In this document: piece after piece, positions 3,869 to 35,872 of the stretch
Layout: the number at the start of each line of letters is the position of its first letter
Position numbering within the stretch: the first letter of the stretch is position 1
Assembly: GCA_017559545.1 (NCBI GenBank)
Contig: JAFYRK010000062.1
Span: forward strand, 1-37,487
DNA length: 37,487 nt
Reading direction: 5' to 3'
DNA from: Bacteroidales bacterium
GTDB taxonomy: Bacteria; Bacteroidota; Bacteroidia; Bacteroidales; UBA932
The notes under the pieces: generated by a model
The model's input: the letters and a program-made list of their open reading frames with translations, nothing else
Told to the model about the DNA's origin: nothing
Databases searched by the model: none
Translations under genes and position numbers: made by a program

Positions 3869-3900
3869 CAAAAATAATGAAAATATGCAAATATGCCAAA
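3869..3900 (-). promoter_or_regulatory. Predicted secA promoter (Bacteroidota -33/-7)
   Basis: On the minus strand TTTG (complement of 3897-3900) is followed after 20 nt by TATTTTTG (complement of 3869-3876), matching the Bacteroidota consensus TTTG / TAnnTTTG. The implied start near 3862 leaves a leader of about 33 nt before the secA ATG at 3829. The -33 box sits inside the arm of the 3890-3934 hairpin, so termination of the upstream operon and secA initiation share sequence. Confidence 0.55.
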
Positions 3901-10114: not shown

Positions 10115-12244
10115 ATGGGACGAGTCGGATCAGATATGGAAGTGCAGTTTCTACCGGGAGTGGGGCCCAAAAGGGCTGAACTTCTGCGGAAGGAGCTTGA
10201 GGTGAATACGGTAGGAGATCTTCTGAGGGTTTTCCCCTTCAGATACATTGACCGAAGCAGCTTTGTCAGGATAGCAGATGCGCGTCCCGATATGGCCTTT
10301 GTGCAGATGCGCGCAAGGGTGATGAGAGTTGATATTCATGATGGAAAGAGGATGAGCGTATGGATCAGCGATGGGACCGGCGAGATGGAGATGGTGTTCT
10401 TCAAGGGCATAAAGTGGATGCATGAGAAGCTGAAACCTGGATCCGAGTTCATATTCTTCGGCAAACCGAGCGCCTTCAACGGAAGATTGAACATAGTGCA
10501 TCCGGAAGTGGATAATGTTCCCTCAGGAAGTCCAGCCAACACCGGTGCACAATCTGCTACAGACAGGACAGGAACCCTGACCGGAGTGTACCCAAGCACA
10601 GAGAAACTGAAGAATGCAGGGATAACTGGAAAGGTGATGAACAAGATTATGGAGGCGGCGCTGGAGAAGGGACTGAGTTACGAGAAGGAGAGCTTGCCGG
10701 AGTGGCTGATGAAGCAGTATGGTCTTGTGCCATTGCATTATGCACTCAGAAACATACACTTTCCAAAGGACATGCAGTCTTTGGAGAAAGCGAAATACAG
10801 GCTTAAGTTTGAGGAACTTTTCATGCTCCAGCTATCACTGCTGAAGCAGAAATATGTCCGCAGCAGAGATGTGCACGGCATTCCGATGCCACGCGTCGGA
10901 GAAGCATTCAACCAATGCTACGCTTCGCTCCCATTTGACCTGACAGGAGCCCAGAAGAGGGTGATCAGAGAGATACACACTGACATGAAGAGCGGCCTGC
11001 AGATGAACAGGTTGCTGCAGGGTGATGTGGGAAGCGGAAAGACCATGGTCGCAGTACTTACTGCATTGATAGCTATCGGAAACGGCTACCAGGCATGCAT
11101 CATGGCGCCGACGGAAGTCCTGGCACAGCAGCACTATAAGAACATCCAGAAATTCCTTGCTCCGACAAATGTGAAGTCCGCTCTCCTGACAGGCAGCACG
11201 AAGACCTCGGAAAGACGAGAGATCCACGCTGGCCTTGCAGACGGAAGCATAGGAATCATCGTCGGAACACACGCACTGATCGAGGACAATGTCGTGTTCA
11301 ACAATCTCGGACTGGCCATCATTGACGAACAGCATAGATTTGGTGTTGAACAGAGGGCGAAGCTGTGGCGCAAGACCACATGCGGAGCGCTGCCGCACGT
11401 GCTTGTCATGACGGCTACGCCTATTCCACGCACCCTCGCCATGACTCTGTATGGTGACCTGGACGTGTCAGTGATTGACGAGCTTCCTCCTGGAAGAAAG
11501 CCTGTGCGCACGATGCATGTGACCGAAGGCAAGAGGCCTGAGATGTACCAGTTCATGCGAAACGAGATTGCAAAAGGACGTCAGGTCTTCATAGTCTACC
11601 CGCTGATCAATGAAACTGAAAAACTTGATTATCAGAGTCTTGAAGCCGGAGCAGAGGAGATCATGAACAAGTTTCCATATCCGGAGTACACAACTGCTGT
11701 CGTGCACGGAAAGCAGCTCAACGACGTGAAGAAGTTCAACATGGATGCCTTCTCATCCGGACGTGCGAACATACTCGTTGCGACGTCAGTGATTGAAGTA
11801 GGAGTGGATGTTCCGAATGCATCTGTGATGATCATCGAGAGCGCGGAACGCTTCGGATTGAGCCAGCTGCACCAGCTGCGCGGACGCGTGGGACGAGGCA
11901 GCGAGAAGTCATACTGCATACTCATGACCGGTTACAAGCTCAGCAAGGAATCCCGACACAGGATCGAGCTCATGTGCTCGACCGAGAACGGCTTTGAACT
12001 GGCGGAAGAGGATATGAAGATGAGAGGCCCGGGAGACCTGGAAGGAACCCAGCAGAGCGGTCTGCCGATAACCCTCAACATTGCGTCGCTTGCCAAGGAC
12101 GGAATCATCCTCAACGCAGCGCGCGACTGCGCCGATGCGGTACTTAAGGAAGACCCTACATTGAGCCTGCTGAAGAACCAGCTTCTAAGGGAGGAAATGA
12201 AGAAAGACAAATATCAGATAAAAGACTACAGCAAAATCAGTTAG
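10115..12244 (+). CDS. recG: ATP-dependent DNA helicase RecG
   Basis: RecG remodels stalled replication forks and branch-migrates recombination intermediates. The 709-residue protein shows the family order: N-terminal wedge/OB domain (about 60-135, including VWISDGTGEMEMVFF), Walker A GDVGSGKT (303-310), motif Ia region MAPTEVLAQQHY, the family-typical DEQH box (404-407, in IIDEQHRFGVEQR), MTATPIPRT, and the C-terminal helicase motifs ending in QLRGRVGRG. The N-terminal helix-hairpin-like LPGVGPKRAELL is also typical. Length fits the family (about 690-710). It opens a plus-strand operon, with the WYL regulator 3 nt downstream and the S9 peptidase after that. Confidence 0.98.
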   Translation: MGRVGSDMEVQFLPGVGPKRAELLRKELEVNTVGDLLRVFPFRYIDRSSFVRIADARPDMAFVQMRARVMRVDIHDGKRMSVWISDGTGEMEMVFFKGIKWMHEKLKPGSEFIFFGKPSAFNGRLNIVHPEVDNVPSGSPANTGAQSATDRTGTLTGVYPSTEKLKNAGITGKVMNKIMEAALEKGLSYEKESLPEWLMKQYGLVPLHYALRNIHFPKDMQSLEKAKYRLKFEELFMLQLSLLKQKYVRSRDVHGIPMPRVGEAFNQCYASLPFDLTGAQKRVIREIHTDMKSGLQMNRLLQGDVGSGKTMVAVLTALIAIGNGYQACIMAPTEVLAQQHYKNIQKFLAPTNVKSALLTGSTKTSERREIHAGLADGSIGIIVGTHALIEDNVVFNNLGLAIIDEQHRFGVEQRAKLWRKTTCGALPHVLVMTATPIPRTLAMTLYGDLDVSVIDELPPGRKPVRTMHVTEGKRPEMYQFMRNEIAKGRQVFIVYPLINETEKLDYQSLEAGAEEIMNKFPYPEYTTAVVHGKQLNDVKKFNMDAFSSGRANILVATSVIEVGVDVPNASVMIIESAERFGLSQLHQLRGRVGRGSEKSYCILMTGYKLSKESRHRIELMCSTENGFELAEEDMKMRGPGDLEGTQQSGLPITLNIASLAKDGIILNAARDCADAVLKEDPTLSLLKNQLLREEMKKDKYQIKDYSKIS

Positions 12245-20076: not shown

Positions 20077-22875
20077 ATGAAACGTTTGTTTATCTTTATT
20101 GCAGCCATCTTCGCTGCTGCGGTTGCATTCGGTCAGACACCGCTACCCAATGACCCTGACGTAAGGGTCGGCAAGCTGGAGAACGGTATGACCTACTACA
20201 TCCGCCACAACGGCCAGCCGGCTCAGAGAGCTGAGTTCTACCTGGCAACTGACGTTGGAGCATACCAGGAAGCTGACGACCAGGACGGTCTCGCCCACTT
20301 CCTTGAGCACATGTGCTTCAACGGTACAAAGAACTTCCCTGGCAAGACACTCCTTGAGTGGCTCCAGAGCATCGGCGCAGAGTTCGGAAGAAACATAAAC
20401 GCATCAACTGGATTCGAGCAGACACAGTACATGCTCAACAACATTCCTATCGTACGCGAGAGCATCATTGACTCATGCCTCCTCGTGCTCCACGATTACT
20501 CACACTTTGTGACTTGTGACCCTGAGGAGATTGACGCAGAAAGAGCTGTCATCCTTGAGGAGAAGAGAACAAGAAACGATGCAGGCTGGAGAATGTTTGA
20601 AAAATCACTCCCATACTACTTCGGCGACACTCCTTATGCAAGAAGAACCCTCATCGGTGGCGAGGAGCAGCTTAAGACATTCGCATACGAGAGCCTCACT
20701 AACTTCTACAAAGACTGGTGTCGTCCTGACCTCCAGGCTGTCATCGTTATCGGTGACGTTGACGTTGACCAGATTGAGGCTAAGCTCAAGACTATCTTCG
20801 CAGACATCCCTGCAGCTGAGAACCCAAGAGAGAAGGTTTACTATCAGCTTCCTCAGAACCAGGAGCCTGTCATCGGTATCATCACAGATGCTGAGGCTAC
20901 AAGCTCAAGCATCGAGGTGATGTGGAAGGGTGAGCCTCTCCCTAAGGAGTTCGGCAACACTGTAGAGGGTTACATGGTTGATCTCGTGAAGTCATATGTT
21001 TACTACATCATGCAGGAGAGATTCGGCGACATCACATCTAAGCCAGATGCTCCTTTCCTTGGCGCAAGCCTTAGCGTTGGCCGTCTCTGCACAACTTGCG
21101 AGGGAGTTTTCGCTAACGTATCATTCAAGGACGGAGATGCAGTGAACGCTTTCGCTGCAATGATGCTTGAGGTTGAGAAGATGAAGAGATTCGGTTTCAC
21201 TGACGGTGAGGTCGAGCGCGCAAAGGCAAAGATCATGAGCCACTATGAGAGAGCTGTCGAGGCTGCTCCAACACGCAAGAACGCAGACTTCGTCCGCCCT
21301 CTCCTCAATGCATTCTACCACAACGAGGCTTACCTGGACCCTCAGACTGAGCTCCAGGTTGCACAGATGATCTGCGCGCAGCTCAACACTGCTGTACTCA
21401 GTCAGATCGCTGCTTCCATGATCACAGACGAGAACATGGTGGTTCTTTACAATGGTCCGCAGAAGGATGGTCTCAGAAACCCAACCGAGGAGGAACTCGC
21501 TGCAGTTATAGCTGCAGTAAAGACTGCTGAGATCGAAGCTAACGTAGAGGAGACTGTAAACGAACCGCTCATCAGCGGCAACCTTAAGGGCAGCAAAGTA
21601 AAGAAAACTGCAGAGGGCATCTACGGTTCTACAGTATGGACCCTTAAGAACGGCCTCAAGGTTGTAGTTCTCCCTACTGAGCACAAGAAGGATCAGGTAA
21701 TCATGAACCTCAAGTTCGAAGGTGGTAAGACTCTCGTTTCTGACGAGGAAATCGTATCTTTAGAGGACAACATCTGGTCTGTTTACCTTAACAACACTGG
21801 TATCTCTAAGTTCCCGTCAACAGTTCTGTCCAAGATGCTTGCCGGTAAGAATGTAAGCATGAACCCATATATCGGCGGAACACAGCACGGCATCAGCGGT
21901 CAGAGTACACCTAAGGATATTGAGACTGCACTCCAGCTCATGTACCTTCTTTTCGCTGATCCACGTTTTGATGCAGAGGAGTATGCTACAGGTATCAAGC
22001 AGATTGAGGCTATCCTCCCTAACATTGCAAACAACCCTGACTTCCAGTTCCAGAACTACGTAAGCAATAAGCTTTACGGAGGGAACAAGAGAGTTGTAGA
22101 GCTCAATGCCGAGACTCTGGCTGCTGCAAAACTTGAGACAATCGAGACAGTTTACCGCAGACTCTTCAACAATGTTGGTGGAGCTACCCTTTATATTATT
22201 GGCAACGTCGACCTCGAGACTCTCAAGCCAATGGTTGAGATGTATGCAGGTTCTCTCCCTAAGGGAAAGAAGGGCACAAAGGTAAATGAGGAGCAGATGA
22301 TCCAGATGGTGAAGGGCGTTTCTGACGATAACACTCTCCGCCTCCCACTCCAGACTCCTAAGCAGACCGTATTCCAGGTATTCAGCGGATACATGCCTGT
22401 AACCACTAAGGATATGGTTACACTCAAGGTGGCAAACTACGTCCTTGACATGATCTACACAAAGACCATCCGCGAGAAGGAAGGTGGCACATACGGTGTA
22501 GGCTCAAGCCTCAGCGCTTCAAGAGCACCATACGACAGAGTTACATTCATGGTTCAGTTTGACACTAACCCAGAGCAGGCACCTAAGCTCAGCGGCCTTA
22601 CAGTGAAGTATCTCAACGAACTCGCACAGAACGGTCCTACAGCAGAGGAGTTTGCAATGGCTATGGAGAACATCCAGAAGAACCTCCCAGAGTCAAGAAT
22701 CACTAACTCTTACTGGCAGAGCGCTCTTGCACTCAACCAGGAGTATGGCATTGACTATGATGCAGAGTACGAGGCTGCACTCAAGAGTGTGACACCAGAG
22801 GATGTGAAGACCCTCATGCAGGCAGTTCTTGCACAGGGCAACTTCATCCAGATCATGCTTGCACCAGCAGAATAA
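20077..22875 (+). CDS. M16-family zinc metallopeptidase (insulinase/pitrilysin type), exported
   Basis: A 932-residue protein with a signal peptide (cleavage likely after AVAFGQ, residue 20). The N-terminal half carries the inverted zinc motif H74-F-L-E77-H78 and the distal ligand E155 in DAERAVILEEKR, 77 residues after the second His as in pitrilysin, so it should be catalytically active. The second half (about 510-932) is the usual structurally similar but non-catalytic M16C domain (KNGLKVVVLPTEHKKDQV, then YGVGSSLSASRAPYDR). Two-lobed M16 enzymes of 930-950 residues are common in the periplasm of Bacteroidota and degrade peptides in an enclosed chamber. Codon bias resembles nifJ, suggesting high expression. 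It is divergent from the short LysR gene, which probably regulates it, and is followed by a 14-bp terminator. Confidence 0.95.
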   Translation: MKRLFIFIAAIFAAAVAFGQTPLPNDPDVRVGKLENGMTYYIRHNGQPAQRAEFYLATDVGAYQEADDQDGLAHFLEHMCFNGTKNFPGKTLLEWLQSIGAEFGRNINASTGFEQTQYMLNNIPIVRESIIDSCLLVLHDYSHFVTCDPEEIDAERAVILEEKRTRNDAGWRMFEKSLPYYFGDTPYARRTLIGGEEQLKTFAYESLTNFYKDWCRPDLQAVIVIGDVDVDQIEAKLKTIFADIPAAENPREKVYYQLPQNQEPVIGIITDAEATSSSIEVMWKGEPLPKEFGNTVEGYMVDLVKSYVYYIMQERFGDITSKPDAPFLGASLSVGRLCTTCEGVFANVSFKDGDAVNAFAAMMLEVEKMKRFGFTDGEVERAKAKIMSHYERAVEAAPTRKNADFVRPLLNAFYHNEAYLDPQTELQVAQMICAQLNTAVLSQIAASMITDENMVVLYNGPQKDGLRNPTEEELAAVIAAVKTAEIEANVEETVNEPLISGNLKGSKVKKTAEGIYGSTVWTLKNGLKVVVLPTEHKKDQVIMNLKFEGGKTLVSDEEIVSLEDNIWSVYLNNTGISKFPSTVLSKMLAGKNVSMNPYIGGTQHGISGQSTPKDIETALQLMYLLFADPRFDAEEYATGIKQIEAILPNIANNPDFQFQNYVSNKLYGGNKRVVELNAETLAAAKLETIETVYRRLFNNVGGATLYIIGNVDLETLKPMVEMYAGSLPKGKKGTKVNEEQMIQMVKGVSDDNTLRLPLQTPKQTVFQVFSGYMPVTTKDMVTLKVANYVLDMIYTKTIREKEGGTYGVGSSLSASRAPYDRVTFMVQFDTNPEQAPKLSGLTVKYLNELAQNGPTAEEFAMAMENIQKNLPESRITNSYWQSALALNQEYGIDYDAEYEAALKSVTPEDVKTLMQAVLAQGNFIQIMLAPAE

Positions 22876-24557: not shown

Positions 24558-25700
24558 ATGATAATAGATATAATTAGAAACAGCATACTGATTACAGGAC
24601 TGGTGGTCATCATGATGATGATGATCGAGTCTCTGAACATCGAGTCAAAGGGTCTGTTCTTCAAGGGACTCCGTAAGACCAAGGTCGGACAGGTGGTGAT
24701 AGCGTCACTGCTGGGATCCATTCCCGGCTGCATGGGAGGCTTCGCCACTGTCTCTCTCTATACACACAGAATGTTCAGTTTCGGAGCTCTTGTGGCCATG
24801 ATGATAGCATCATCCGGCGACGAAGCTTTCGTCATGCTGGCGATGATTCCAGAGCAGGCATTGATTCTATTTGCAGTGCTGTTTGTATTGGCTATCATTG
24901 TCGGTATCATTACTGACAAGATCTATGATAAGGCACACGCAAGAACATGCGATCTCCACGACCACGAGGACTGCGGTGTACAGACTGATTGCGACGGTTA
25001 TGAGATTCATGAGCATGAAACACATCAGCACAACCATGAGAAGAGGCATTTCGGTTGGAAACGCATAACTATGCTTGTGGGACTTGCACTTTTCATTGCT
25101 GCACTGGGAACCGGCAAGTTGGGACATGACCATGAGGCTCATGCAGGGCATGAACATGATGGGCATGTACACACCGAGGCATGCGAGCACCACGGACATG
25201 CACATGAACACAGCCATGGACACGAGATAAACCTGTTGAGCGAGGATTGGATGAATGTGCTTTTTGCAGGACTTAGCGTGATCATGCTTGTTGTCCTCAT
25301 ATTCGCCAAGGATCATTTCGTAGAGAAACATCTCTGGAACCACATCATCAAGAAACACCTCCCGACGATATTCGCATGGACATTCGGTGTTCTGCTGGTA
25401 CTGGGAATAGTCCTCCGCTATGTGGACATAGATAATTGGATAAGCGATAATACAGCGCTGATGATACTTCTTGCCACTCTTATAGGCATCATCCCGGAAT
25501 CTGGTCCGCACATGATATTCGTGACACTTTTCGCTGCCGGAGTCGTTCCATTCCCTGTACTACTTGCCAGCAGCATCTCGCAGGACGGCCATGCCAGCAT
25601 TCCTCTCCTTGCAGAAAGCAAGAAGAGCTTCGCACAGGCGAAGCTCATCAATTGCTTTGTTGCATTGGCTGCAGGTTTTGCCGCAATGCTCTTTATGTAA
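24558..25700 (+). CDS. Putative 10-TM heavy-metal (manganese) exporter with His-rich loops
   Basis: A 380-residue inner-membrane protein of the putative heavy-metal exporter family (ArsP_2 type, often named putative manganese transporter). Two related halves carry matching motifs: GSIPGCMGGFATVSLYTH with ASSGDEA (about 53-90), and GIIPESGPHMIFVTLF with ASSISQDGHAS (about 310-347), an inverted-repeat transporter plan. Two hydrophilic loops are extremely His-rich: about 127-164 has 9 His, and 190-222 has 14 His in 33 residues plus Cys209, suited to binding transition metals. It is 3 nt after the DUF1573 gene and ends 6 nt from the convergent PCMD gene. The metal is not proven; Mn, Zn, Ni and Co are possible. 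Confidence 0.8.
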   Translation: MIIDIIRNSILITGLVVIMMMMIESLNIESKGLFFKGLRKTKVGQVVIASLLGSIPGCMGGFATVSLYTHRMFSFGALVAMMIASSGDEAFVMLAMIPEQALILFAVLFVLAIIVGIITDKIYDKAHARTCDLHDHEDCGVQTDCDGYEIHEHETHQHNHEKRHFGWKRITMLVGLALFIAALGTGKLGHDHEAHAGHEHDGHVHTEACEHHGHAHEHSHGHEINLLSEDWMNVLFAGLSVIMLVVLIFAKDHFVEKHLWNHIIKKHLPTIFAWTFGVLLVLGIVLRYVDIDNWISDNTALMILLATLIGIIPESGPHMIFVTLFAAGVVPFPVLLASSISQDGHASIPLLAESKKSFAQAKLINCFVALAAGFAAMLFM

Positions 25701-25706
25701 CAGGAT

Positions 25707-27329
25707 TTACCTGTATGTGAAACTGAATCCGTCTACGTAGAGTGTCGATCCGACACCACCAGTAAAATAGTCTCCCCTGTAGCTTGAACAGGCTACAATA
25801 ATCACATATGCCGGAGTTCTTGTATCACCCTCGCGATATACAAGCGGTATCTCGAATTCCTGATACTCGCCTCCGGTACTCTGATCACTGAGCAGATCAC
25901 CGTAAGCAATGACACGCGGATTTGTCTTGAGGTTCGGCTCTCCAGGCAAGTTACTGTTGACTACAAATGGTCCGACATCATCACCTTCGCCTTCTGCCAC
26001 CAGAGCTACCATAATCTGCATAATGTCAGGCTTACCTACCATATCAGGATATTTGCCCATCTCATCCCTGTTGACAATAGCAGGCAGATAATCATAGAAT
26101 CCCTTTAATGAATATGGACGTGAAGTAAATGGAGCACCCCAATCCAGGAGGGCTGTCCAGTCCTTGAATTCTACGAACTTTCCTGTGAAGAGGTTACCGG
26201 CTGCGAACTTGATCAATGCCAAAGAGCTGACCATCCTGGCCGCAGCATCACCTTCTACCTTGTGCTCGTATTCCGGAACTGTTGTATTCTCAATAAGACT
26301 TGAAATACCCGGATTGGCTGTATCCCAGTATGGGAACGGATCGTCTTCTGCATAAGGGAACCATGTCTTGCCGTTCTTTCCGCCATAGTACCAGCTGTTG
26401 AAGCCCATTCCAGGCAACTGCGCCGGAGTATCCGTAGTAAAGACATACTCTGCTCCTACAACATTATCGGAAACAAGTCTGACAGCATACTCTGTCGCTT
26501 CTTCAAGTTCTGTAAGGTCACCTGTCACTGATACGCCTTCAACTGACACCGCATCAAGACGGTTCCAGTCCTGATCACTGGTCTTCCTATACTCGAAATA
26601 AGGAACACCTTCGCCGTTGTATTCGCCTTTTACGACTGCATGATAAGTCCATGCCACCACAGATCTGATCTCATTCTGGATTGCCTTCTGGACAAATGTC
26701 ACTGTCCAGTCAGACTCTACACCTTTATACAACACCGTAAAAGTGCGGGACAATGTGCAGTCAAGAACCATAGGAAAAGACACTTCCTTTGTCACGATTC
26801 CGGAGTCGGCATTATCCTGACCGGTAGTCGATACAATAACTGAAGTATCTGGACCTAGCTTCATCGCAGAGATTGTCATCTCTTCCAAAGGCTGCTTTTC
26901 GACCACGTAAACCAATACAGTCTGATTATCTGCATTGAAGACAGCATCTATCAATCCGCTGCAACGGATGTATCTTTCGATAGGCTGAGAAGCCGAGATA
27001 GTCCAGACGTACTCCTGTCCGGGATATGTCTTCAGAAGAAGGTTATACGGTTCAGAGAGATTAATCATCTGACCTGGTGCATCATCGGTAGTCGCGAGCT
27101 CAGAAAGCTCAAAATCCAGAACCTTCAGGTTATTGATCTCTGCAGTTTCCTGCAGAAGAACCTCAACCGTTTGGGTTCCGTCATTTATCGTTACGCTCTT
27201 CTGCCCTTCAACTGCAAAGGCTGTTATCCTGCCTTGGAGTTGAGGATAGGACATATCGTTCTCAAACACGCATGAAACGCATGCGAGTAACGATAACAGA
27301 AGGGCCACAACATATATTAACCTTTTCAT
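25707..27329 (-). CDS. PCMD-domain lipoprotein
   Basis: A 540-residue predicted lipoprotein with a lipobox near its start (LLACVSC, acylated Cys17 or Cys20). Residues about 30-215 form one or two Ig-like domains, about 225-300 look like a fibronectin-III-type module ending FTTDTP, and the C-terminal part (about 305-540) is a PCMD domain (putative carbohydrate metabolism domain, PF13201): GMGFNSWY, PYWDTANPG, ASSYRG-like GDYFTGG, LYVDGFSFTY. PCMD domains have a jelly-roll, carbohydrate-binding-like fold but no proven activity. It is the last gene of the five-gene operon, 8 nt after the barrel gene, and nearly abuts the convergent exporter gene with no clear terminator. Confidence 0.85.
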   Translation of the reverse strand: MKRLIYVVALLLSLLACVSCVFENDMSYPQLQGRITAFAVEGQKSVTINDGTQTVEVLLQETAEINNLKVLDFELSELATTDDAPGQMINLSEPYNLLLKTYPGQEYVWTISASQPIERYIRCSGLIDAVFNADNQTVLVYVVEKQPLEEMTISAMKLGPDTSVIVSTTGQDNADSGIVTKEVSFPMVLDCTLSRTFTVLYKGVESDWTVTFVQKAIQNEIRSVVAWTYHAVVKGEYNGEGVPYFEYRKTSDQDWNRLDAVSVEGVSVTGDLTELEEATEYAVRLVSDNVVGAEYVFTTDTPAQLPGMGFNSWYYGGKNGKTWFPYAEDDPFPYWDTANPGISSLIENTTVPEYEHKVEGDAAARMVSSLALIKFAAGNLFTGKFVEFKDWTALLDWGAPFTSRPYSLKGFYDYLPAIVNRDEMGKYPDMVGKPDIMQIMVALVAEGEGDDVGPFVVNSNLPGEPNLKTNPRVIAYGDLLSDQSTGGEYQEFEIPLVYREGDTRTPAYVIIVACSSYRGDYFTGGVGSTLYVDGFSFTYR

Positions 27330-27337
27330 GAGTCAAT

Positions 27338-28147
27338 CTACTTTTTATTCCTATGGACTCCTGTAGGTATATAGAAAGACATACCCAGACCTACGGAAAG
27401 AGGATTGATCTTGTAGTTTGCACCGCTGCTCTCCATCACGCTCTTATCCACCTGGTTTGTAGTCTGAACAGTCTTGTTATAGTTGAATCCCATAAGTCCT
27501 ACGGAAACCTCAACTGCGACTTCGTTGGTCACGAAGACAGATAGTCCAGGTACAAGTCCCAGTTCAAACTTATAGATATCCTGGTATGTACCATACTTCT
27601 CCCCTGCCTCGTCCTTGTATGTCTCTGACTGTCCATATCCACCAAGAGCCCTGACTTCAGTAAACATTGCAAAACGCTTGCTGTTTCCGAAAGGAATATA
27701 ATATCTTCCTGTAATGGCACCTGTATAAGCCTGTTTGAGGTAATTGAAATCACTGATTGAGAAATTGGCCAGATCTCCAAGGGAGATACTTGCATTCCCA
27801 AGCCCAAATGAGGATCTGCTGTAATCGAACCGCACGCCGACAGACAGGTTGTCTGCAACAAAATATGACGCCCATGGGGCCACACCCCAGGTCTGCATGT
27901 TGCCATGAACATCACCGATCAAAGAAAGCAATGCCGTATAACCGGCATCAGCCGAACCCTGACCTAATGCATAATCATTATATGAGAAAGTGACACCAGC
28001 TCCTACCGTACCCTTCGGAATGAATGTAGATGTCGAGAGAGTGATTCCTCTGTCAAATGGCTCTACGTTTTCGTTTTTATCGGTCTTTGCTGTCGCTGCA
28101 GCTCCTGTCATAAGGATTGCTGCAAAGAATATGATTGTCTTTTTCAT
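27338..28147 (-). CDS. Outer-membrane beta-barrel protein of the DUF4493/PCMD operon
   Basis: A 269-residue protein with a signal peptide (MKKTIIFF, cleavage near TGAAATA) and strands of alternating polar and hydrophobic residues separated by Gly/Asn turns (GAGVTFSYNDY, LSVGVRFDYSRSSFG, YTGAITGRYYIPFG, FAMFTEVRALGGYGQ, VAVEVSVGLMGFNY, LSVGLGMSFYIPTG). This fits a small barrel of about ten strands. The C-terminus extends a few basic residues past the last strand (GVHRNKK). It starts one base after the preceding DUF4493-PCMD gene, so the two are translationally linked. As the only barrel among four lipoproteins it may anchor or export them, but this is inference. Confidence 0.75.
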   Translation of the reverse strand: MKKTIIFFAAILMTGAAATAKTDKNENVEPFDRGITLSTSTFIPKGTVGAGVTFSYNDYALGQGSADAGYTALLSLIGDVHGNMQTWGVAPWASYFVADNLSVGVRFDYSRSSFGLGNASISLGDLANFSISDFNYLKQAYTGAITGRYYIPFGNSKRFAMFTEVRALGGYGQSETYKDEAGEKYGTYQDIYKFELGLVPGLSVFVTNEVAVEVSVGLMGFNYNKTVQTTNQVDKSVMESSGANYKINPLSVGLGMSFYIPTGVHRNKK

Positions 28148-28148
28148 T

Positions 28149-30314
28149 TTACTTATACTTTACCTTGGCTAATTGTTCTTCTGTGAGCTGAGATGGTTCA
28201 TAGACAAACGAGAACTCATCCACATACATGACGCTTGAAGTGGATCCTGTGAAATAGTCTCCGTACTTACTTGCTGAAGCCGCAATGACGATATACCTTG
28301 GCTGGCGTGTCGTGCTACGGTATGTAAGAGGGATTGTGAACTCGATGTATCCATTTGTCTGGTTGAAGTCCATGATTCCATATGCAATGATGCCCGAATC
28401 ATTTGCCGTATCAACAAACTTGCCGCTTGCCGTACTGATACGGAATGGTGCGCTCCAGTCTGTGATAAACACCTGCACACTTGCGATATCCGGCTTTCCT
28501 GACATATTGTTATACGGAGCATTGGTCTGGTTCACTGTACCTGGCGTATAATCAACGTATCCTTTGAGTGCCAAAGGACGAGAGGTGTACGAGACTCCCC
28601 AATCAAGCTCCGCACCTGGATCTGTGAGACTTGTTATTGCCTTGACAAACCTACCGGTATAGATATTACCTGCGGCAAGGCCGACAAGTGCAACGCTCTT
28701 GCTTTCAAGTTTAGCTGCGGCATCTCCACCGATCTTGTGGTTATATTCCGGACTCGTAGGGAATACATTGACTGCTTTCGAACCACCGTTGGCAGTATCC
28801 CACCAGAAGTTGCCGGAATCCGGATTCGGATACCATACACCATCGCTCTGATACCATGCATCAAAGCCCATGTTAGGGATAGTACCGGCTGATTCCGTTA
28901 CAAATGTCCTCTCCTTGGTCTCCTTTTCCTTCGATGAAACCGCACGGAAGACATATGTGGTCGACGGTTCAAGACCCCACACCTCTGCTGTAAATGTCTT
29001 GGTCAAAGGATCTGAAACAACCTTATCAGCAGCAACCTCAACCCAATCAGAGGCAGTCTGCTTACGATACTGGAAGCTTACGGCATCAGGTTGCTCCTCT
29101 GGATACCATTTTCCTGAAAGGAATGCCAGACATGCCCAAGGAGTGGCAGAGACAGCCTCTACATCAGCCGCAGACACAACCTCAAAATTGCAATACTGAG
29201 TCCTTGTCCTACCATCATGAGCCTCTATATAGAACTCGATACGATATACTCCAATCGGGAGTTTTGATACAAGGCCACTGAGGTCAAGTGTGGCTGATCT
29301 GGCGCCGTCCAGAATCTCAGAGACAAGGATTCCTCTTAACGCATACCATGTCCTGTCTGAAGCAGTCATGTTCATCATCTTGAAGTTATACGGAAGGGAA
29401 TTGTTGCTGAGATCTGAATTGGCATGGCTGAGCTGGACATATTTCGCACCTCCTGGGATATCGATATAGAATTTGGCCTCAGCAGGCTGCCCCTCTACGA
29501 ATTTGATAACCTTGTTCATATCGAACGAAGCGCTTACTGCCGGACGGATACCCGCCTCGAAGTCGAGCAGGAGATCGTATGTCTTATCTGTTGTTTCTCC
29601 GTTTATGGAAACAGACACATCCGAACCACCGAACTCATCGCGCTCTCCAAGAGAGAACTTGAGATTATAGTGCTGACACGGCTTGATGTCAGTGTATGTC
29701 TCAGTAATGTCACCATATCTGGTTCCATCTGTATTCGTAAGACTGAGTGTCCATGTCAGATGGTCTGTGGCAGTAAAGTATCCTTCCTTTGAGAAAGTTC
29801 CGTCAAGACTGCTGTAAACAAGTGTGCCGACGCCATTGGACACTGTCAGGACATATTCGCTGAAAAGAAGCAACATCTGCTCGGACATCTCAGCTGTCAC
29901 CTTTACATTTGCCAATGTACATACGACTGTCGCAGTTGTGACCTGATTCCCACGGACTGCAATGGTAGTTTCACCGCTGTAGAATGGCGCATCAAAGGCT
30001 GCTGTTCCTACAGGCGAAGAGGAAGCAACCACACGGTAGTAGCCCACAGGTACCTCAAGTGGCGATGCAGCCAGCTCGTTGTGGTCCTGGTATGCAGCAA
30101 TGATATTCTCATCACTGTCATAAATGACAAGAGAGAATATCATGTCCTCCGAGGCAGTACTTTTGAAGACCGGATCGACGGTCACGTCCTGCTTCAGGCT
30201 GACATACAGGTAGCCGGTTTCCTGGACATCCGTCCCCACGCCTTCCTTTATGCAGGAAGTCGTACACAACGCCAGAAGCACAGCTACTGATATACTATAT
30301 ATATATTTAAGCAT
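28149..30314 (-). CDS. DUF4493-PCMD lipoprotein
   Basis: A 721-residue predicted lipoprotein (lipobox LCTTSC, Cys21). Residues about 35-240 are a DUF4493 domain (GYLYVSLKQD, then VPVGYYRVVASS and APFYSGET), an Ig/fimbrillin-like beta-sandwich. About 250-380 is another Ig-like segment, about 385-475 a fibronectin-III-like module (FRAVSSKEKETKERTFVTES), and about 480-705 a PCMD domain (NMGFDAWYQ, FWWDTANGG, HKIGGDAAAKL, ASRPLALKGYVDY-like SRPLALKG, GDYFTGSTSSVMYVDEFSF). It resembles the last gene of the operon through its C-terminal half and the two upstream genes through its N-terminal half, so it links both types. Probably exposed on the cell surface. Function unknown. Confidence 0.85.
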   Translation of the reverse strand: MLKYIYSISVAVLLALCTTSCIKEGVGTDVQETGYLYVSLKQDVTVDPVFKSTASEDMIFSLVIYDSDENIIAAYQDHNELAASPLEVPVGYYRVVASSSPVGTAAFDAPFYSGETTIAVRGNQVTTATVVCTLANVKVTAEMSEQMLLLFSEYVLTVSNGVGTLVYSSLDGTFSKEGYFTATDHLTWTLSLTNTDGTRYGDITETYTDIKPCQHYNLKFSLGERDEFGGSDVSVSINGETTDKTYDLLLDFEAGIRPAVSASFDMNKVIKFVEGQPAEAKFYIDIPGGAKYVQLSHANSDLSNNSLPYNFKMMNMTASDRTWYALRGILVSEILDGARSATLDLSGLVSKLPIGVYRIEFYIEAHDGRTRTQYCNFEVVSAADVEAVSATPWACLAFLSGKWYPEEQPDAVSFQYRKQTASDWVEVAADKVVSDPLTKTFTAEVWGLEPSTTYVFRAVSSKEKETKERTFVTESAGTIPNMGFDAWYQSDGVWYPNPDSGNFWWDTANGGSKAVNVFPTSPEYNHKIGGDAAAKLESKSVALVGLAAGNIYTGRFVKAITSLTDPGAELDWGVSYTSRPLALKGYVDYTPGTVNQTNAPYNNMSGKPDIASVQVFITDWSAPFRISTASGKFVDTANDSGIIAYGIMDFNQTNGYIEFTIPLTYRSTTRQPRYIVIAASASKYGDYFTGSTSSVMYVDEFSFVYEPSQLTEEQLAKVKYK

Positions 30315-30316
30315 GG

Positions 30317-31588
30317 TTACTCAACTACAGGGTTGTAGAATAGAACATCCTTGACAAGTTTCTGATCCTTCTCGTCAGTCACCTCGAGGGTAAAGATATA
30401 GTCCTCTCCAGGGTTTCCGACCGCTGCTATGAGTGGTACGAGCTGCGAGAGCGAGAACATCACCTCAGTCTGTCCGAGGAGCTGGTCTCCTACAGGAAGC
30501 ATGCTTCCGAGAGCCTCCTTAGCGGTCTCATCACCGATAAGGTCAAGGTACTCAGCACCTGGCACAAGTATCTGGATTGCAGGAAGGAAGTTATCGCTGA
30601 CCTTAACCACAAACTCCTTGATCTTACCAGGCGCATATACCATCAGTTCAACGCTCATGCCAGCCTCGATATCCATCTTCTCAAAGTCAGGGTTAGCCTC
30701 CCACACAAGGTATGGAGCCTGAACAGTCACATCCGGTATTGACGGCTGTTCCTCGCCCGGTTCTTCCCATCCTGCCTCGATATCATCATCAATCATCGAA
30801 TCATCAGGATCGATACCTGGAAGGATCATATCAACCAGCTTATCATTAACCGATGTATCAATGCTTAAAGTCATCGAAGACTGTCCGGTCACATGAGCAT
30901 CAAGGTATATGATATGGTGGTCACGTGCAGCAACATCCTTGATCTCATACTTGAGATTTGCAGTAGTGTTGTCTATCTCACGATATCCGTCAACATTGAC
31001 TGTCAGTGCTTCAACAGAGAAATAAGCATGTTTCGAAGGCGACTTGACGATAGTCTTGTCACCATTTGAGGATTCGGTATAGATTCCGACCTCATCAGCC
31101 CCCCATACAAGGTGGCCGTCAGCATTGGAAATCTTTACCTCAAAATCCGTAAGACGATCCATGAAGTGCTGCGAGCAGTATACCGAGTTCTTCATATTCT
31201 GCAGCGTGCAGACGACCTCCAGAGGAGTCACCACTCCTGCCACAATTGCAAAATCCACAGATCCACTATAAACAGGTGTATCCCATGCAACAAGAGCAGT
31301 TTCAGGTGATGTCACACTTACATTATACTCTCCGGTAGAAAGCTCGATCAATGCAGGAATTTCGGCATAAGACCAGGTATTCGAATATTTACCATCCTTT
31401 CTTGCGATATTTACGATAAAGGTATTGACATCCATACCTGTTCCTGATTTGACGACCTTATCGACATACCCGTTATGGTCGGTAGTGATCTTAAGCTGAA
31501 GTCCCGACTGAGACTCAATGACCTGTGGGCGGCATCCTGAGAGAGCCACCGCAGCAATTGCAAACAGCATATATTTTATCTTTCTCAT
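30317..31588 (-). CDS. DUF4493 lipoprotein without PCMD domain
   Basis: A 423-residue predicted lipoprotein (lipobox VALSGC, Cys19 when started at the ATG 31588; a TTG two codons upstream is less likely). Residues about 25-250 match DUF4493 (LQLKITTD, ELSTGEYNVSVTSP, VYSGSVDFAIVAGVVTPLEV, CTLQNMKNSVYCSQ). An acidic Asp/Glu/Pro linker follows (PDDSMIDDDIEAGWEEPGEE, about 260-280). The C-terminal 130 residues form a separate beta-rich domain of unknown family (LVWEANPDFEKMDIEAGM to FYNPVVE). It is 14 nt after the first gene and 2 nt before the third. It could be a structural subunit or spacer. Confidence 0.8.
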   Translation of the reverse strand: MRKIKYMLFAIAAVALSGCRPQVIESQSGLQLKITTDHNGYVDKVVKSGTGMDVNTFIVNIARKDGKYSNTWSYAEIPALIELSTGEYNVSVTSPETALVAWDTPVYSGSVDFAIVAGVVTPLEVVCTLQNMKNSVYCSQHFMDRLTDFEVKISNADGHLVWGADEVGIYTESSNGDKTIVKSPSKHAYFSVEALTVNVDGYREIDNTTANLKYEIKDVAARDHHIIYLDAHVTGQSSMTLSIDTSVNDKLVDMILPGIDPDDSMIDDDIEAGWEEPGEEQPSIPDVTVQAPYLVWEANPDFEKMDIEAGMSVELMVYAPGKIKEFVVKVSDNFLPAIQILVPGAEYLDLIGDETAKEALGSMLPVGDQLLGQTEVMFSLSQLVPLIAAVGNPGEDYIFTLEVTDEKDQKLVKDVLFYNPVVE

Positions 31589-31602
31589 AATCAATATTTT
31601 AT

Positions 31603-33780
31603 CTAGTAATTCAACTTAACATCATCAAGCCACAGAATGTTTCCGGCATGGATGCTGACTGTACCTTCTCCATAATCATAACGCGACAAGGAGTAATCAC
31701 GTGAAGATATCTTTCCTGTCGATGAAGACTTGAAGCTCACATATATCTTGTCGGCCTTCTTATCTGTCACAGTGTATACTAAAGGCAATGTAACCTGTGT
31801 CCATGTACTTACGCTTGAGGCCCCATCTGTCTTCTTTGCAGAACCTATGACTTCGCCATCTTTATCCAGAATCTTGATCTCGACATAATATGGATCTGAT
31901 TCATAGCTATCAAGCTTATACCAATATGACAAGCTTGTCGGGCGGCTGGCAAATGCATGTCCATCCTCAAGATGAGCACCATTATGCTCGCCGGAGTTAT
32001 CCGCCTTTCCCACAAACACTTCTCCGACCTGTGCATCTCCCCATGAATTGAACCAGTTGACATTAGATGAAGCATCACCTACTGCTATCGATGCAATCGT
32101 GATCGCATATGATCCGGAATGCGGGGATTGTGATGTCATATTGACGGTAGGGAAAGACTTGAATGTCGAGTATAAGGCAGAGTTCGAGCTATCCAGAGTA
32201 ATGGAACTGTTGGTTGCCCACCATGGATCGCTGCCGGAAGCCCAAAGGTCCACCCAGTTGATTGTATGGGTTCCCTTGAATGTATTCACTGTAAATGACT
32301 CGAATCCGTTATTACCGATCTGCAGCGGAGCCTCTGTAGTGAATGGAAACTCGGAAGTCTTATTATATGTATTTCCATTATATACAGCCCAGATCTTATA
32401 ACCCGTGCCTGCATTCAGTCCGTTAATGGATCCGAATGTAACTTTCTTGCCGACAACAGACTGCGGCTGGATAGTCTGGACCTTCGTATATAACATATCA
32501 GACTCCATGACACATTTAAGGACAAATCTTGAAGGATCGCCTTTAGTGACGTTCAAGGTCACGCCTGCAAGTCGTGTAGGCCATAGATCGTAGTCATTGA
32601 ACGACATTACAACCTGTGCCTTCTCCATCGCTACAGTGTACGTCTGCGACGAAACAGTCTTGCCCAATCGGTCGGTCACTGTCAGCCTTAAGTCAGCTAT
32701 CGATGATTCATAGTCCGGATGATAGGCAGCGCCCTGAGAAATATAGTCTAACAAACCACTGAAGTCCACATAAGCAAGTCTTTTATCGGCCATCTCACGC
32801 TGGTATCCAAGACCTATTGACTTCAGAGCGTCAGCCACGGCAGGAGAAAGCGATGCCAGGTCGACACTCGAAGGGACACCTTTAGATCTGAGATATGAGG
32901 AATTAATCTCAAGCATACAGCTTTCAATTCCACCCATAGCCACGATATCTGCCTTATAACCATTATGGCGGATAGGGTCTGCCTCACATAAGTAGACTCT
33001 GTTATCTTCAAAACCATTGACGGTAACAGCAGGGGCATCTGCCGGAGCTGCTTCTGCAGGAACACTTATTTCCTTCACGACAGTGTCAACTCCGTTGTCA
33101 ATGAGGATCTCTACCGTGAGATCGTTCATACGCCTGGTATCAAGGTTGAAGGTAACGAAGTCTCGTGCCTCACAAGTAATCGGCTCTGTCTTGTAGACCA
33201 ACCATTTATCCTGTGCGTAGACATAAAGATTAAGGGAAACTTCCCCGACAGGGACATATGCAGCCCTTGTTTCTGATTTGAGGAAAGTTAGTTTTGCACC
33301 ATTTGATGCCACCACTTCCGCATAATATTGATCGTAGTCAAAGTCCAGGGTATTGCCGAAATTCACAGCCACTTTTGCATTTCCAAGAAGAGCCACAGCA
33401 TCTACCTGAACACACTCACCGGCTTTGACATCGAAGAAGGTTTCGGCAACATAGTAGCAGGCCTTGAATCCTGCTTTCTGCGGATCGCCGTAATAGGCAA
33501 AGAGTCTGTGCTCGCCTTTGTTAAGCTCAATTCTGACTCCCTGTGCTTCCGCATAGGTCTTTCTGAAAAAGAGACGTGATGTCGCCGTCTCGTGAACCTC
33601 TACAATGAAGTCATCGACTTCCGGAAGTCCATCATCAGCTCTAGTAGCTGCCACGTCTGGATCTTGCCTGAGGCTGATGGAAACTTCTCCCTGAACCACA
33701 GGAGAGTCGTCGCCTATCGGTTCGCTCAAGCAAGACGTCAGCCCTAATGCTGCCATTAGAATGAATCTTAAACGTCTCAT
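31603..33780 (-). CDS. DUF4493 lipoprotein with PCMD-like C-terminal domain
   Basis: A 725-residue predicted lipoprotein (lipobox LTSC, Cys17) started at the ATG 33780; an upstream in-frame start nine codons earlier lies in the promoter leader and is rejected. Residues about 30-240 are DUF4493-like (GEVSISLRQD, LNKGEHRLFAYYGD, ETFFDVKAGECVQVDAVALLGNAKVAVNF), about 250-400 Ig-like, and about 405-475 a fibronectin-III-like module ending PFTTEAP. About 480-725 is a jelly-roll domain related to PCMD (NNGFESF, PWWATNSS, SPHSGSYAI, FASRPTSLSYWYKLDS, NILWLDDVKLNY). It is the first gene of the operon, 32 nt behind a good -33/-7 promoter. Confidence 0.82.
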   Translation of the reverse strand: MRRLRFILMAALGLTSCLSEPIGDDSPVVQGEVSISLRQDPDVAATRADDGLPEVDDFIVEVHETATSRLFFRKTYAEAQGVRIELNKGEHRLFAYYGDPQKAGFKACYYVAETFFDVKAGECVQVDAVALLGNAKVAVNFGNTLDFDYDQYYAEVVASNGAKLTFLKSETRAAYVPVGEVSLNLYVYAQDKWLVYKTEPITCEARDFVTFNLDTRRMNDLTVEILIDNGVDTVVKEISVPAEAAPADAPAVTVNGFEDNRVYLCEADPIRHNGYKADIVAMGGIESCMLEINSSYLRSKGVPSSVDLASLSPAVADALKSIGLGYQREMADKRLAYVDFSGLLDYISQGAAYHPDYESSIADLRLTVTDRLGKTVSSQTYTVAMEKAQVVMSFNDYDLWPTRLAGVTLNVTKGDPSRFVLKCVMESDMLYTKVQTIQPQSVVGKKVTFGSINGLNAGTGYKIWAVYNGNTYNKTSEFPFTTEAPLQIGNNGFESFTVNTFKGTHTINWVDLWASGSDPWWATNSSITLDSSNSALYSTFKSFPTVNMTSQSPHSGSYAITIASIAVGDASSNVNWFNSWGDAQVGEVFVGKADNSGEHNGAHLEDGHAFASRPTSLSYWYKLDSYESDPYYVEIKILDKDGEVIGSAKKTDGASSVSTWTQVTLPLVYTVTDKKADKIYVSFKSSSTGKISSRDYSLSRYDYGEGTVSIHAGNILWLDDVKLNY

Positions 33781-33811
33781 AATCTGGTTAAGAATTAATA
33801 AAATCAAATTA

Positions 33812-33842
33812 CAAAATTACGCAATAGCAAGGAATTATCAAA
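33812..33842 (-). promoter_or_regulatory. Promoter of the DUF4493/PCMD operon (-33/-7)
   Basis: On the minus strand TTTG (complement of 33839-33842) and TAATTTTG (complement of 33812-33819) are separated by exactly 19 nt, a full match to the Bacteroidota promoter. The implied start near 33805 gives a leader of about 25 nt to the ATG at 33780. Both boxes come from two copies of the same 13-mer. Confidence 0.72.
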
Positions 33843-33851
33843 ATTACGCAA
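33812..33851. repeat. Direct repeat of CAAAATTACGCAA
   Basis: Perfect 13-bp copies at 33812-33824 and 33839-33851 have a 27-bp period. Each contains a complete -7 box on the minus strand (TAATTTTG). The upstream copy also supplies the -33 TTTG for the downstream one. The repeat could be a tandem promoter or a regulator-binding repeat. Confidence 0.8.
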
Positions 33852-33890
33852 CCAAGGGTCATTAAATATGGATTTAGACTAAAAAATTCA

Positions 33891-33925
33891 TATCTTTGCA
33901 TGATTATGCGCCAAGCAGGCGCGTA
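33891..33925 (+). promoter_or_regulatory. parE -7 element and 5'-leader hairpin
   Basis: TATCTTTG (33891-33898) matches the -7 consensus and would start transcription near 33905. A hairpin then forms at the very 5' end of the mRNA: 8 pairs between 33905-33912 and 33918-33925 with loop AAGCA, including GCGCC/GGCGC. Such a 5' stem could protect the message. The -33 box is not clear. Confidence 0.45.
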
Positions 33926-33958
33926 TTTGAAAAAAGAGTATAAAATTCAAAGACAGAT

Positions 33959-35872
33959 ATGGCTGAAGTCATTAATTACACAGACGACAACATCAGGACC
34001 ATGGAGGGCGTGGAGCACATCCGCAAACGCCCAGGAATGTACATCGGAAGACTCGGTAACGGAGATGATCAGGGAGACGGTATATACGTGCTCCTCAAGG
34101 AGGTTGTAGATAACTCGATCGACGAGTTCTCGATGGGTTTCGGAAAGCAGATCCAGATCACAGTGACAGAGAAGGAGGCGACAGTAAGGGACTTCGGCCG
34201 AGGCATTCCCCTCGGCTCGGTAGTCAGGGCGGTCAGCGTCCTGAACACCGGAGGTAAGTATGACACCAAGGGCTACAAGAAGTCAGTAGGTCTTAACGGA
34301 GTGGGTCTGAAGGCGGTCAATGCACTTTCAGCACATTTCTATGTAGAAGCTTACCGTGACGGAATGTGCGCATTTGCCGAGTTCAGAGAAGGAAAGCTCG
34401 TCAATGAGGGCCAGAAGGAGACAAAGGAAAAGAACGGAACAATGGTGAAGTTCATCCCGGACGAGCACCTCTTCGTAGATTACACCTTCCACATGGACAT
34501 CATCGAGACGATGATGAAAAACTACTCTTACCTGAAGAAGGGACTTACACTGAACTTCAACGGCACGCCATACAAGTCAGAGCACGGACTTCTCGACCTG
34601 ATAAAGGACAATATGTCCGAGACTCCCCTTTATGAGCCTATCCACCTGATCGGCGAGGACATTGAGATCGTCATGACCCACGGCAGCAGCTATGGAGAGA
34701 ACATCGCCTCGTTCGTCAACGGACAGAACACACGTGACGGAGGTACCCACCTCGCTGCGATGAGGGAAGGTATCGCGAAGACCTTGAAGGAGTTCTACAA
34801 GACATTCGCAAAGAAGGACTTTGACCCGCAGGACATCCGTCAGGGTATCATTGGAGCTATCAGCATCCAGATCCAGGAGCCTAACTTTGAGGGACAGACC
34901 AAGACAAAGCTCGGTTCTACCTACATGTGGGAGACCGACATGCAGAACGAGGACGGAACCCACACATATGAGCAGGGCCCTACAATCCGAAGCGCGGTCA
35001 ATGAGTTCCTGAAGACAAACCTGGACAACTATCTGCACATGCACAAGGAAATAATTCCTGTGCTGCAGCAGAAGATCACTGAGTCTGAGCAGGAGCGCAA
35101 GGAGATCTCTACCATCCAGAAGAAGACCAAGGAGAGAAACAAGAGAACGAACATCTACAACCGCAAGCTCCGCGACTGCGAGATCCATTACAACGACAAG
35201 CTTCCGGCAGCCAAGAAGGAACTTGCTGAGTTCACAAGCATATTCATCACCGAGGGAGACTCTGCGAGCGGAACCATCACAAAGGCCCGCAATGCAAAGA
35301 CCCAAGCGGTGTTCAGCCTTAGAGGTAAGCCTATCAACTGTTACAAGGAAAGCCGCAAGAAGGTTGCAGAAAACGAGGAGCTCGCACTCCTTGTCAACGC
35401 CCTTGGCGTGGAAGATGATATGGAGAACCTCAGATATAACAAGATCATCATCGCAACCGATGCCGATGACGACGGAATGCACATCCGCATGCTTGTGCTG
35501 ACATTCTTCATGAAATACTACCCTGACCTCGTCAGAAGAGGACACGTACACATCCTTCAGACCCCACTATTCAGAATCAAGGACAAGAAGGAAGTACGCT
35601 ACTGCTACACAAGAGAGGAAAAGGAGAAGGCGCTCAAGGAAATGAAGGGTGGAGTGGAGATCACACGATTCAAAGGTCTCGGAGAAATCTCGGCTAACGA
35701 GTTCGTGGAATTCATCGGCGAGAAGATGAGACTCGATAGAGTGAAGCTCAGTGACGAGGAGTCGATTGCAGAGATCATGGAGTTCTACATGGGAGACAAC
35801 ACCATCGAAAGACAGAACTTCATCCGTACCAACCTCCGCAGCGAGGCCGAGCTTGAAGACGTTAACATTTAA
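33959..35872 (+). CDS. parE: DNA topoisomerase IV subunit B
   Basis: A type IIA topoisomerase ATPase subunit of 637 residues, which with ParC decatenates daughter chromosomes. The GHKL ATPase domain has E48 and N52 (KEVVDNSIDE), D78 (RDFGRGIP) and the lid GLNGVGLKAVNALS (about 111-124). The TOPRIM domain has E432 (TEGDSASG) and the D501-A-D503-D504-D505 cluster. The N-terminal signature DDQGDGIYVLLKEVVDN and the overall length match Bacteroidota ParE rather than GyrB. parC is not present in the window. The acyltransferase gene starts 4 nt after the stop. Confidence 0.95.
   Translation: MAEVINYTDDNIRTMEGVEHIRKRPGMYIGRLGNGDDQGDGIYVLLKEVVDNSIDEFSMGFGKQIQITVTEKEATVRDFGRGIPLGSVVRAVSVLNTGGKYDTKGYKKSVGLNGVGLKAVNALSAHFYVEAYRDGMCAFAEFREGKLVNEGQKETKEKNGTMVKFIPDEHLFVDYTFHMDIIETMMKNYSYLKKGLTLNFNGTPYKSEHGLLDLIKDNMSETPLYEPIHLIGEDIEIVMTHGSSYGENIASFVNGQNTRDGGTHLAAMREGIAKTLKEFYKTFAKKDFDPQDIRQGIIGAISIQIQEPNFEGQTKTKLGSTYMWETDMQNEDGTHTYEQGPTIRSAVNEFLKTNLDNYLHMHKEIIPVLQQKITESEQERKEISTIQKKTKERNKRTNIYNRKLRDCEIHYNDKLPAAKKELAEFTSIFITEGDSASGTITKARNAKTQAVFSLRGKPINCYKESRKKVAENEELALLVNALGVEDDMENLRYNKIIIATDADDDGMHIRMLVLTFFMKYYPDLVRRGHVHILQTPLFRIKDKKEVRYCYTREEKEKALKEMKGGVEITRFKGLGEISANEFVEFIGEKMRLDRVKLSDEESIAEIMEFYMGDNTIERQNFIRTNLRSEAELEDVNI

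Follow-up and report, generated by a model that had tools for sequence, protein, structure and literature searches.

What does a Bacteroidales cell build from five closely packed genes, four of them for lipoproteins with the domains DUF4493 and PCMD and one for a small outer-membrane beta-barrel? The question is raised by a stretch of 37,487 nt from a Bacteroidales bacterium (contig JAFYRK010000062.1 of assembly GCA_017559545.1), hereafter called the window, on whose minus strand these genes lie. To our knowledge, neither DUF4493 nor PCMD has a proven function. No paper under either name was found in the open-licence literature, subscription papers not being covered, and the structure paper on BT2081 treats the PCMD family under other words. 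In this study, we followed the operon through related genomes and weighed the explanations for it, among which a type V pilus-like or S-layer-like barrel-lipoprotein assembly with glycan-binding heads is the most likely. The genes are lettered in order of transcription, and S denotes the short DUF4493 form found in relatives; Ig and fn3 stand for immunoglobulin and fibronectin type III.

31603-33780, minus strand: gene A, 725-residue lipoprotein with DUF4493, Ig-like and fn3-like parts and a degenerate PCMD jelly-roll
30317-31588, minus strand: gene B, 423-residue lipoprotein with DUF4493 and then a C-terminal Ig-like segment
28149-30314, minus strand: gene C, 721-residue lipoprotein with DUF4493, Ig-like and fn3-like parts and a PCMD head
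27338-28147, minus strand: gene D, small outer-membrane beta-barrel of 269 residues in which an N-terminal DRG...PKG segment is conserved
25707-27329, minus strand: gene E, 540-residue lipoprotein without DUF4493, with an N-terminal Ig-like region resembling that of the levan surface glycan-binding protein (SGBP), an fn3-like part and a PCMD head

The spacing from A to E is 14, 2, 1 and 8 nt in the open reading frame (ORF) list of the window, and lipoboxes are readable in the translations of A, B, C and E. A sequence-only reading, made without database searches, had described five minus-strand genes with these gaps, four lipoboxes and one barrel gene, and the same coordinates and gaps were recovered here.

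The five genes form a conserved module

Besides the window, 35 loci picked for clustered DUF4493 domains and 46 picked for the barrel were read, two contigs being counted twice among them (L104 is L180 and L105 is L182). Barrel and E are present in 33 of the 35 DUF4493-picked loci, the other two (L098, L100) hitting contig ends, while E or a short PCMD lipoprotein follows directly after the barrel in 45 of the 46 barrel-picked loci, with L177 as the exception. With the window included, E or a shorter PCMD lipoprotein related to it stands directly after the barrel in 79 of 80 barrel loci, so that the comparison of gene order proposed along with the sequence-only reading finds the genes to be neighbours elsewhere too. 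The commonest arrangements are ABCDE (31), SBCDDE (10) and ABCDDE (7); smaller ones are BDE (3), DDE (3, of which L117 is cut by a contig end), DE (1) and D plus a short PCMD lipoprotein (2), the minimal set of D and one PCMD lipoprotein being found in L176 and L178.

Over the order, 61 of 295 sampled genomes match the barrel profile at E <=0.001, and strong matches of at least 230 bits occur in 25 of the 295, from 13 families. Loci from all 13 families were read: 11 hold DUF4493 genes, barrel and E in the window's order, and two (f25, f68) hold reduced gene sets. The best barrel match outside the order, in a class sample of 198 genomes, reaches 90 bits, and in the window's genus 22 of 37 genomes, many of them incomplete, match the barrel. 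Eight relatives lie in named genomes, all of them uncultured Bacteroidales metagenome-assembled genomes (MAGs) and two belonging to Candidatus Cryptobacteroides. Since the gene order recurs in relatives, the five-gene arrangement is not due to chance, and it is strongly supported that the five genes are one conserved module, real and widespread in the order.

A generic linkage of barrels with such lipoproteins was considered as well and rejected: in ten of the 33 genomes with weaker barrels (45-66 bits), PCMD or DUF4493 was found within three genes of the barrel in no case (0/10). At L177 (921-2964), a lone PCMD-less barrel is followed by a putative lipoprotein of 378 residues without a Pfam family. 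In variants with the short DUF4493 form, a same-strand gene of 610-650 residues without a Pfam family over the cut-off precedes the short gene (L079 5930-7762, L116 14596-16464, L081 6533-8479, L174 2313-4148) and may be a further operon member. In L161, L165 and L168, E is followed by another pair of genes, one of A or B type and one short DUF4493 gene, so that the set extends to both sides of the barrel.

The lipoproteins as probable variations of one scaffold

DUF4493 is matched in A, B and C (E 1.4e-31, 9e-36 and 7e-38), and PCMD (PF13201, cut-off 28 bits) in C (E 5.4e-39, 134.7 bits) and E (E 5.4e-42, 144.6 bits). In A the PCMD match is weak, with 25.4 bits alone, under the cut-off, and 31.4 bits together with neighbouring pieces in a whole-genome search. 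Profiles built from the loci show that the C-terminal part of B matches an Ig-like segment also present in A and C, which overturns the earlier description of the 423-residue B as DUF4493-only. The profiles suggest that the four lipoproteins are variations of one scaffold, whose N-terminal domain is DUF4493 (A, B, C) or an Ig-like region (E) and which continues with Ig-like, fn3-like and PCMD parts. The scaffold is truncated after the Ig-like part in B and after DUF4493 in the S forms of relatives. A search of PDB sequences with DUF4493 alignments gave best E-values of 0.0015 and 0.0026 on short or partial matches and was uninformative.

DUF4493 is also found outside the module, since 134 of 199 genomes of the window's family contain it, many with a single match. 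The own genome has such a lone gene, fused to DUF6359, at L108 (contig C150, 8877-9941), and no barrel was seen near single DUF4493 genes in the stretches read (0/5; L108, L125-L128).

Surface export and a candidate Lys/Arg processing site

By a heuristic, a lipobox was found in 213 distinct A, B, C and S sequences and was absent in 7 further ones. At least two acidic residues occupy the six positions after the lipid cysteine in 74% of A (n=42), 47% of B (n=81), 50% of C (n=64), 54% of S (n=26) and 40% of E (n=73), compared to 16-20% in 6-mers further along the same proteins. This count omits 7 sequences of A, B or C in which no lipobox was recognised. Acidic residues at this place are a sign of surface lipoproteins, according to the cited section of PMC12578637, and the surface location assumed in the sequence-only reading therefore gains statistical support.

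In the DUF4493 proteins, the lipid cysteine is followed by a short strand of alternating pattern (G-x-L-x-L), and the basic residue that comes next often lies within T/V/S-K/R-A/S. In 169 DUF4493 lipoproteins, single genes included, the loose form of this motif is present in 87% and the strict form T-K/R-A/S in 57%, versus 29% and 6% in other lipoproteins of the same loci (n=52) and 24% and 2% in E (n=54). Known pilus proteins gave 96% and 70% for Mfa_like_1 fimbrillins (23 used of 30 fetched loci), 60% and 47% for FimA-type proteins (15 used of 30) and 20% and 0% for Mfa2 anchors (n=25). Shuffled DUF4493 segments show 28-33% and 4-6%. All motif counts depend on rough lipobox rules; the shuffle comparison left out sequences without a lipobox (2 of B, 7 of C, 11 of E and 1 of S) and, since it took a wrong cysteine in some C, the separate count over 169 proteins is the better one. 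In the window, the corresponding sites are as follows.

33637-33645, minus strand: T-R-A motif of A (residues 46-48), following the first strand, candidate site of protease processing
31445-31453, minus strand: V-K-S motif of B (residues 46-48), candidate processing site
30159-30167, minus strand: F-K-S of C (residues 50-52), basic residue at a similar place, outside the counted motif

In the cited sections of PMC5789003, Mfa1, Mfa3 and Mfa4 are described as cut at an Arg after the first strand and the anchor Mfa2 as uncut. Type V pilins are presented there and in the cited part of PMC12632263 as surface lipoproteins cut after the first strand, the tip pilins often having a C-terminal ligand domain. 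Judged by motif, the DUF4493 subunits resemble pilins that are cleaved, and E resembles a base that is not. The proposed role of B as a linker can be retained, while its N-terminal K/R site points to a pilin-like subunit.

DUF4493 slots and PCMD heads

On a tree of 200 DUF4493 domains, those from different positions relative to the barrel are mostly kept apart. For the three slots, 66 of 70, 58 of 64 and 55 of 62 domains fall into the best clade of their own slot, with supports of 0.92, 0.96 and only 0.52; 4, 11 and 9 are misplaced, versus means of 59-66 for shuffled labels, and slot labels change 8 times on the tree where the ideal is 2.

The PCMD domains of C and E, by comparison, do not separate on their tree. 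Within a locus, C and E heads share an identity of 0.475 versus 0.393 for other pairings (66 loci, z 13.4), whereas the same test yields z 1.7 for the fn3 region and z 2.0-2.4 for DUF4493. Over the PCMD tree of 144 domains, the C/E label changes 17 times, while one ancient duplication predicts a single change; with branches under 0.8, 0.9, 0.95 and 0.99 support dissolved, at least 14, 12, 7 and 3 changes remain. Because of this excess of label changes, repeated exchange or conversion of heads between C and E is probable. In functional terms, the matched heads could both recognise the same ligand, or each other.

For the question of binding or cutting, heads were aligned to BT2081 (3hbz), the window copies being counted twice. 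Of 68 C and 76 E heads, 68 and 75 retain Asp256 of BT2081, 64 and 65 retain Asp338, and 68 and 73 retain the calcium ligand Asp351; in A, Asp338 is kept in 2 of 43. At the Asp259 position, 61 of the 68 C heads have Q, N, S, R, K or H; of the 76 E heads, 66 have Q, H, S, I or T and 4 have Glu. In this alignment D is not among the six commonest residues there in either C or E. The authors of the BT2081 structure name Asp259 and Asp338 as possible catalytic residues in the section cited (PMC2954218). Since Asp338 is kept but Asp259 is not, the alignment favours heads that bind rather than cut.

The barrel and its neighbour E

D by itself has no Pfam match at E 1, and 8 of 37 barrel relatives match OMP_b-brl (PF13505; E up to 10, best 1.7e-5). 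An amphipathicity scan, a rough heuristic, delineated 11 stretches in D, 8 of which were judged membrane strands by eye, and on this pattern D looks like a narrow 8-stranded barrel. A PDB sequence search with the barrel was uninformative (best E 0.79). Since the strand pattern looks like that of a narrow 8-stranded barrel, possibly of PF13505 type, a role as anchor or platform is likelier than the channel that had also been suggested, for which we find no support.

When 58 of the 75 E N-termini were made into a profile, it matched chain T of the levan utilisome (8a9y and relatives) with E 1.8e-11 for the whole sequence; the match comprises two stretches, and the first of them takes in the signal peptide. 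We take chain T of 8a9y to be BT1761. By analogy with the levan SGBP, E may sit on D.

Operon boundaries and flanking genes

33812-33842, minus strand: Bacteroides-type promoter TTTG-N19-TAATTTTG, 31 nt upstream of the gene A ATG
25625-25646, minus strand: terminator-like hairpin 3' of gene E, within the end of the convergent ArsP-type gene

The promoter is the one clear signal already claimed from the letters alone; sites of the form TTTG-N19-TAATTTTG occur 3 times in the window versus 0.15 expected. The other two Bacteroides-type promoter matches (3869-3900 and 10780-10811) lie one upstream of secA (minus strand) and one within recG. No inverted repeat of at least 13 nt is present at 33650-34050 around the operon promoter. 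ATG starts were taken for A (33780) and B (31588), where TTG starts slightly upstream are likewise open. The hairpin after E is weak evidence, with 8 such sites in the window versus 5.5 expected.

The operon is flanked by a divergent DNA gyrase B-type gene (33959-35872) and a convergent ArsP_2-type permease gene (24558-25700), the latter with histidine-rich stretches. Among the 15 window genes scanned, which exclude 20077-22875, smaller ORFs and the flanks of relatives, no SusC, SusD or glycoside hydrolase was found, which fits the earlier statement that this is not an ordinary polysaccharide-utilisation locus (PUL). The source genome is a draft of 2.13 Mb in 150 contigs, 69% complete, and probably a MAG.

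Proposed assembly and its alternatives

Gene order, domains, the mostly slot-specific DUF4493, the within-locus similarity of heads, the site motif and the surface-export signal are directly supported. We tentatively propose that the operon builds a barrel-based, type V pilus-like, glycan-binding surface assembly, a reading that is plausible without being secure, and for which we infer cleavage, strand exchange, a polymer or complex, a glycan ligand and D-E contact. E would stay uncleaved as a surface lipoprotein, with a PCMD head and an Ig stalk like that of the SGBP, and would be seated on barrel D, so that D and E would constitute the minimal base. A, B and C, together with the S forms of relatives, would be exported as surface lipoproteins and cut after the first beta-strand by a Lys/Arg-specific surface protease, which would free them from the lipid. 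The cut subunits would then attach to the base by strand exchange of their DUF4493 domains, every subunit occupying a fixed slot. C would show a second PCMD head, which within this family of operons tends to match the head of E, while A would carry a degenerate head and B and S would act as spacers. The assembly would bind a glycan or a glycosylated partner, and no import would take place. The stronger statement, that DUF4493 is a separate, unrecognised class of protease-matured strand-exchange pilus subunits in Bacteroidales, with fixed slots on a small outer-membrane barrel and two lectin heads that repeated exchange between a tip-like C and a base subunit E keeps matched, is rather unlikely to hold in full.

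Several observations weigh against the proposed assembly. A profile comparison of DUF4493 with Mfa2 reached a weak 31.6% probability (E 5e-4, 42 columns), the reversed profile giving 0.67; with the signal peptide removed, the probabilities were 0.1% for FimA and 1.4% for Mfa_like_1. The positive controls were themselves mixed (Mfa2-FimA 86.8%, Mfa2-Mfa_like_1 0.8%, FimA-Mfa_like_1 2.8%). Mfa2 and Mfa_like_1 are absent among the 25 listed of 61 families matched by 58 A, C and S domains, and no Mfa2-type anchor was found in the operon (PF08842, E up to 1, five proteins). The site of the window's own C, FKS, lies outside the motif. For the matched heads, just 9 of 66 loci have the own E as the best-matching E of C, and in just 4 of 59 does C lie nearer to the own E than to every other C; the window's C and E heads share 42%, near background. 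The matching may stem from gene conversion without selection, since no other segment is as similar as PCMD. Finally, the presence of C11 (clostripain-type) proteases in 21 of 23 genomes of the genus suits the proposed cut, but being near-universal they do not discriminate.

On homology in particular, a match of 50.9% between DUF4493 and Mfa_like_1 was obtained with the signal peptide and vanished without it, and homology is therefore not claimed. Mfa2 is touched by 5 of the 38 B proteins (best 0.0092) and Mfa_like_1 by 1. A relationship of DUF4493 to fimbrillins is not established by these comparisons. On one contig of the own genome (G000:C124), a PCMD protein and a clostripain-type C11 protease are encoded at 3043-3783 and 11093-12238.

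The strongest rival is a static complex like BT1926-BT1927, in which four lipidated lipoproteins would form a coat or lattice around D, with no cleavage and no fibre, perhaps for protection from phage or complement. In the sections cited, PMC12578637 describes BT1926 as a predicted 8-stranded barrel beside the surface lipoprotein BT1927 and calls barrel-lipoprotein complexes a hallmark of the phylum Bacteroidota; D is of the small barrel type, and the minimal pairs of L176 and L178 would suit such a complex. Against a static coat stands the enrichment of the K/R site in DUF4493 subunits and not in E. Furthermore, none of the 37 barrel relatives matches a BT1926-named family (12 families matched; the presence of such a model in the library is unconfirmed), and the window promoter lacks the flanking inverted repeat expected from the invertible BT1927 promoter (PMC12578637, section cited). 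We consider this coat doubtful, though a serious contender.

Alternatively, C and E could be surface glycan-binding proteins which feed a transporter encoded elsewhere, with D as a mere anchor. Such capture without SusCD would agree with the SGBP-like N-terminus of E, with the retention of Asp256, Asp338 and Asp351 in most heads and with PCMD relatives in PULs associated with SusC-like proteins, as reported in the cited section of PMC2954218. It is nevertheless improbable, since the 15 window genes scanned, relatives' flanks not included, contain no SusC, SusD or glycoside hydrolase, and since the headless DUF4493 subunits B and S would stay unexplained. A degradative surface machine with the PCMD domains as its glycoside hydrolases is very improbable, since of the two residues proposed as catalytic in BT2081 (PMC2954218, section cited) Asp338 is kept but the Asp259 position is substituted in most C and E heads of the sequence alignment, though the neighbouring Asp256 is kept.

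Through the K/R site and the similarity of the heads, two domains of unknown function now lead to testable claims about a cutting protease, a fibre and a ligand common to both heads. In uncultured gut genera, the operon could, speculatively, be a means of attachment.

Comparison with known systems

The operon resembles type V pili (FimA/Mfa1 of Porphyromonas gingivalis and the pili of gut Bacteroides) in that surface lipoprotein subunits are encoded in one operon, a short first strand is followed by a Lys/Arg site, some subunits have a C-terminal binding domain and, by motif, one uncleaved lipoprotein, E, takes the place of an anchor-like component. It differs from them since DUF4493 is not detectably a fimbrillin family and an Mfa2-type anchor is missing, while the operon contains a barrel gene, PCMD heads and several paralogous slots. 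With the BT1926-BT1927 pair it shares a small barrel encoded beside a surface lipoprotein (PMC12578637, PMC12118408, sections cited); in contrast to that pair, four DUF4493/PCMD lipoproteins are present (the sequences of BT1926 and BT1927 themselves were not compared), and the promoter has no inverted repeat, whereas that of BT1927 is given as invertible (PMC12578637, section cited).

E resembles the SGBP of SusCD utilisomes (BT1761) in its N-terminal region and BT2081 in its head, which is of the same jelly-roll family. Unlike in SusCD utilisomes, no SusC or SusD is encoded among the window genes scanned, and the levan SGBP chain is annotated as DUF4960; unlike in BT2081, the proposed catalytic Asp259 is not kept in the heads. 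New results of this study are the K/R site in DUF4493 lipoproteins, the largely slot-specific DUF4493 domains next to the similarity of C and E heads, the retention of Asp338 but not Asp259 and the likeness of E to the levan SGBP.

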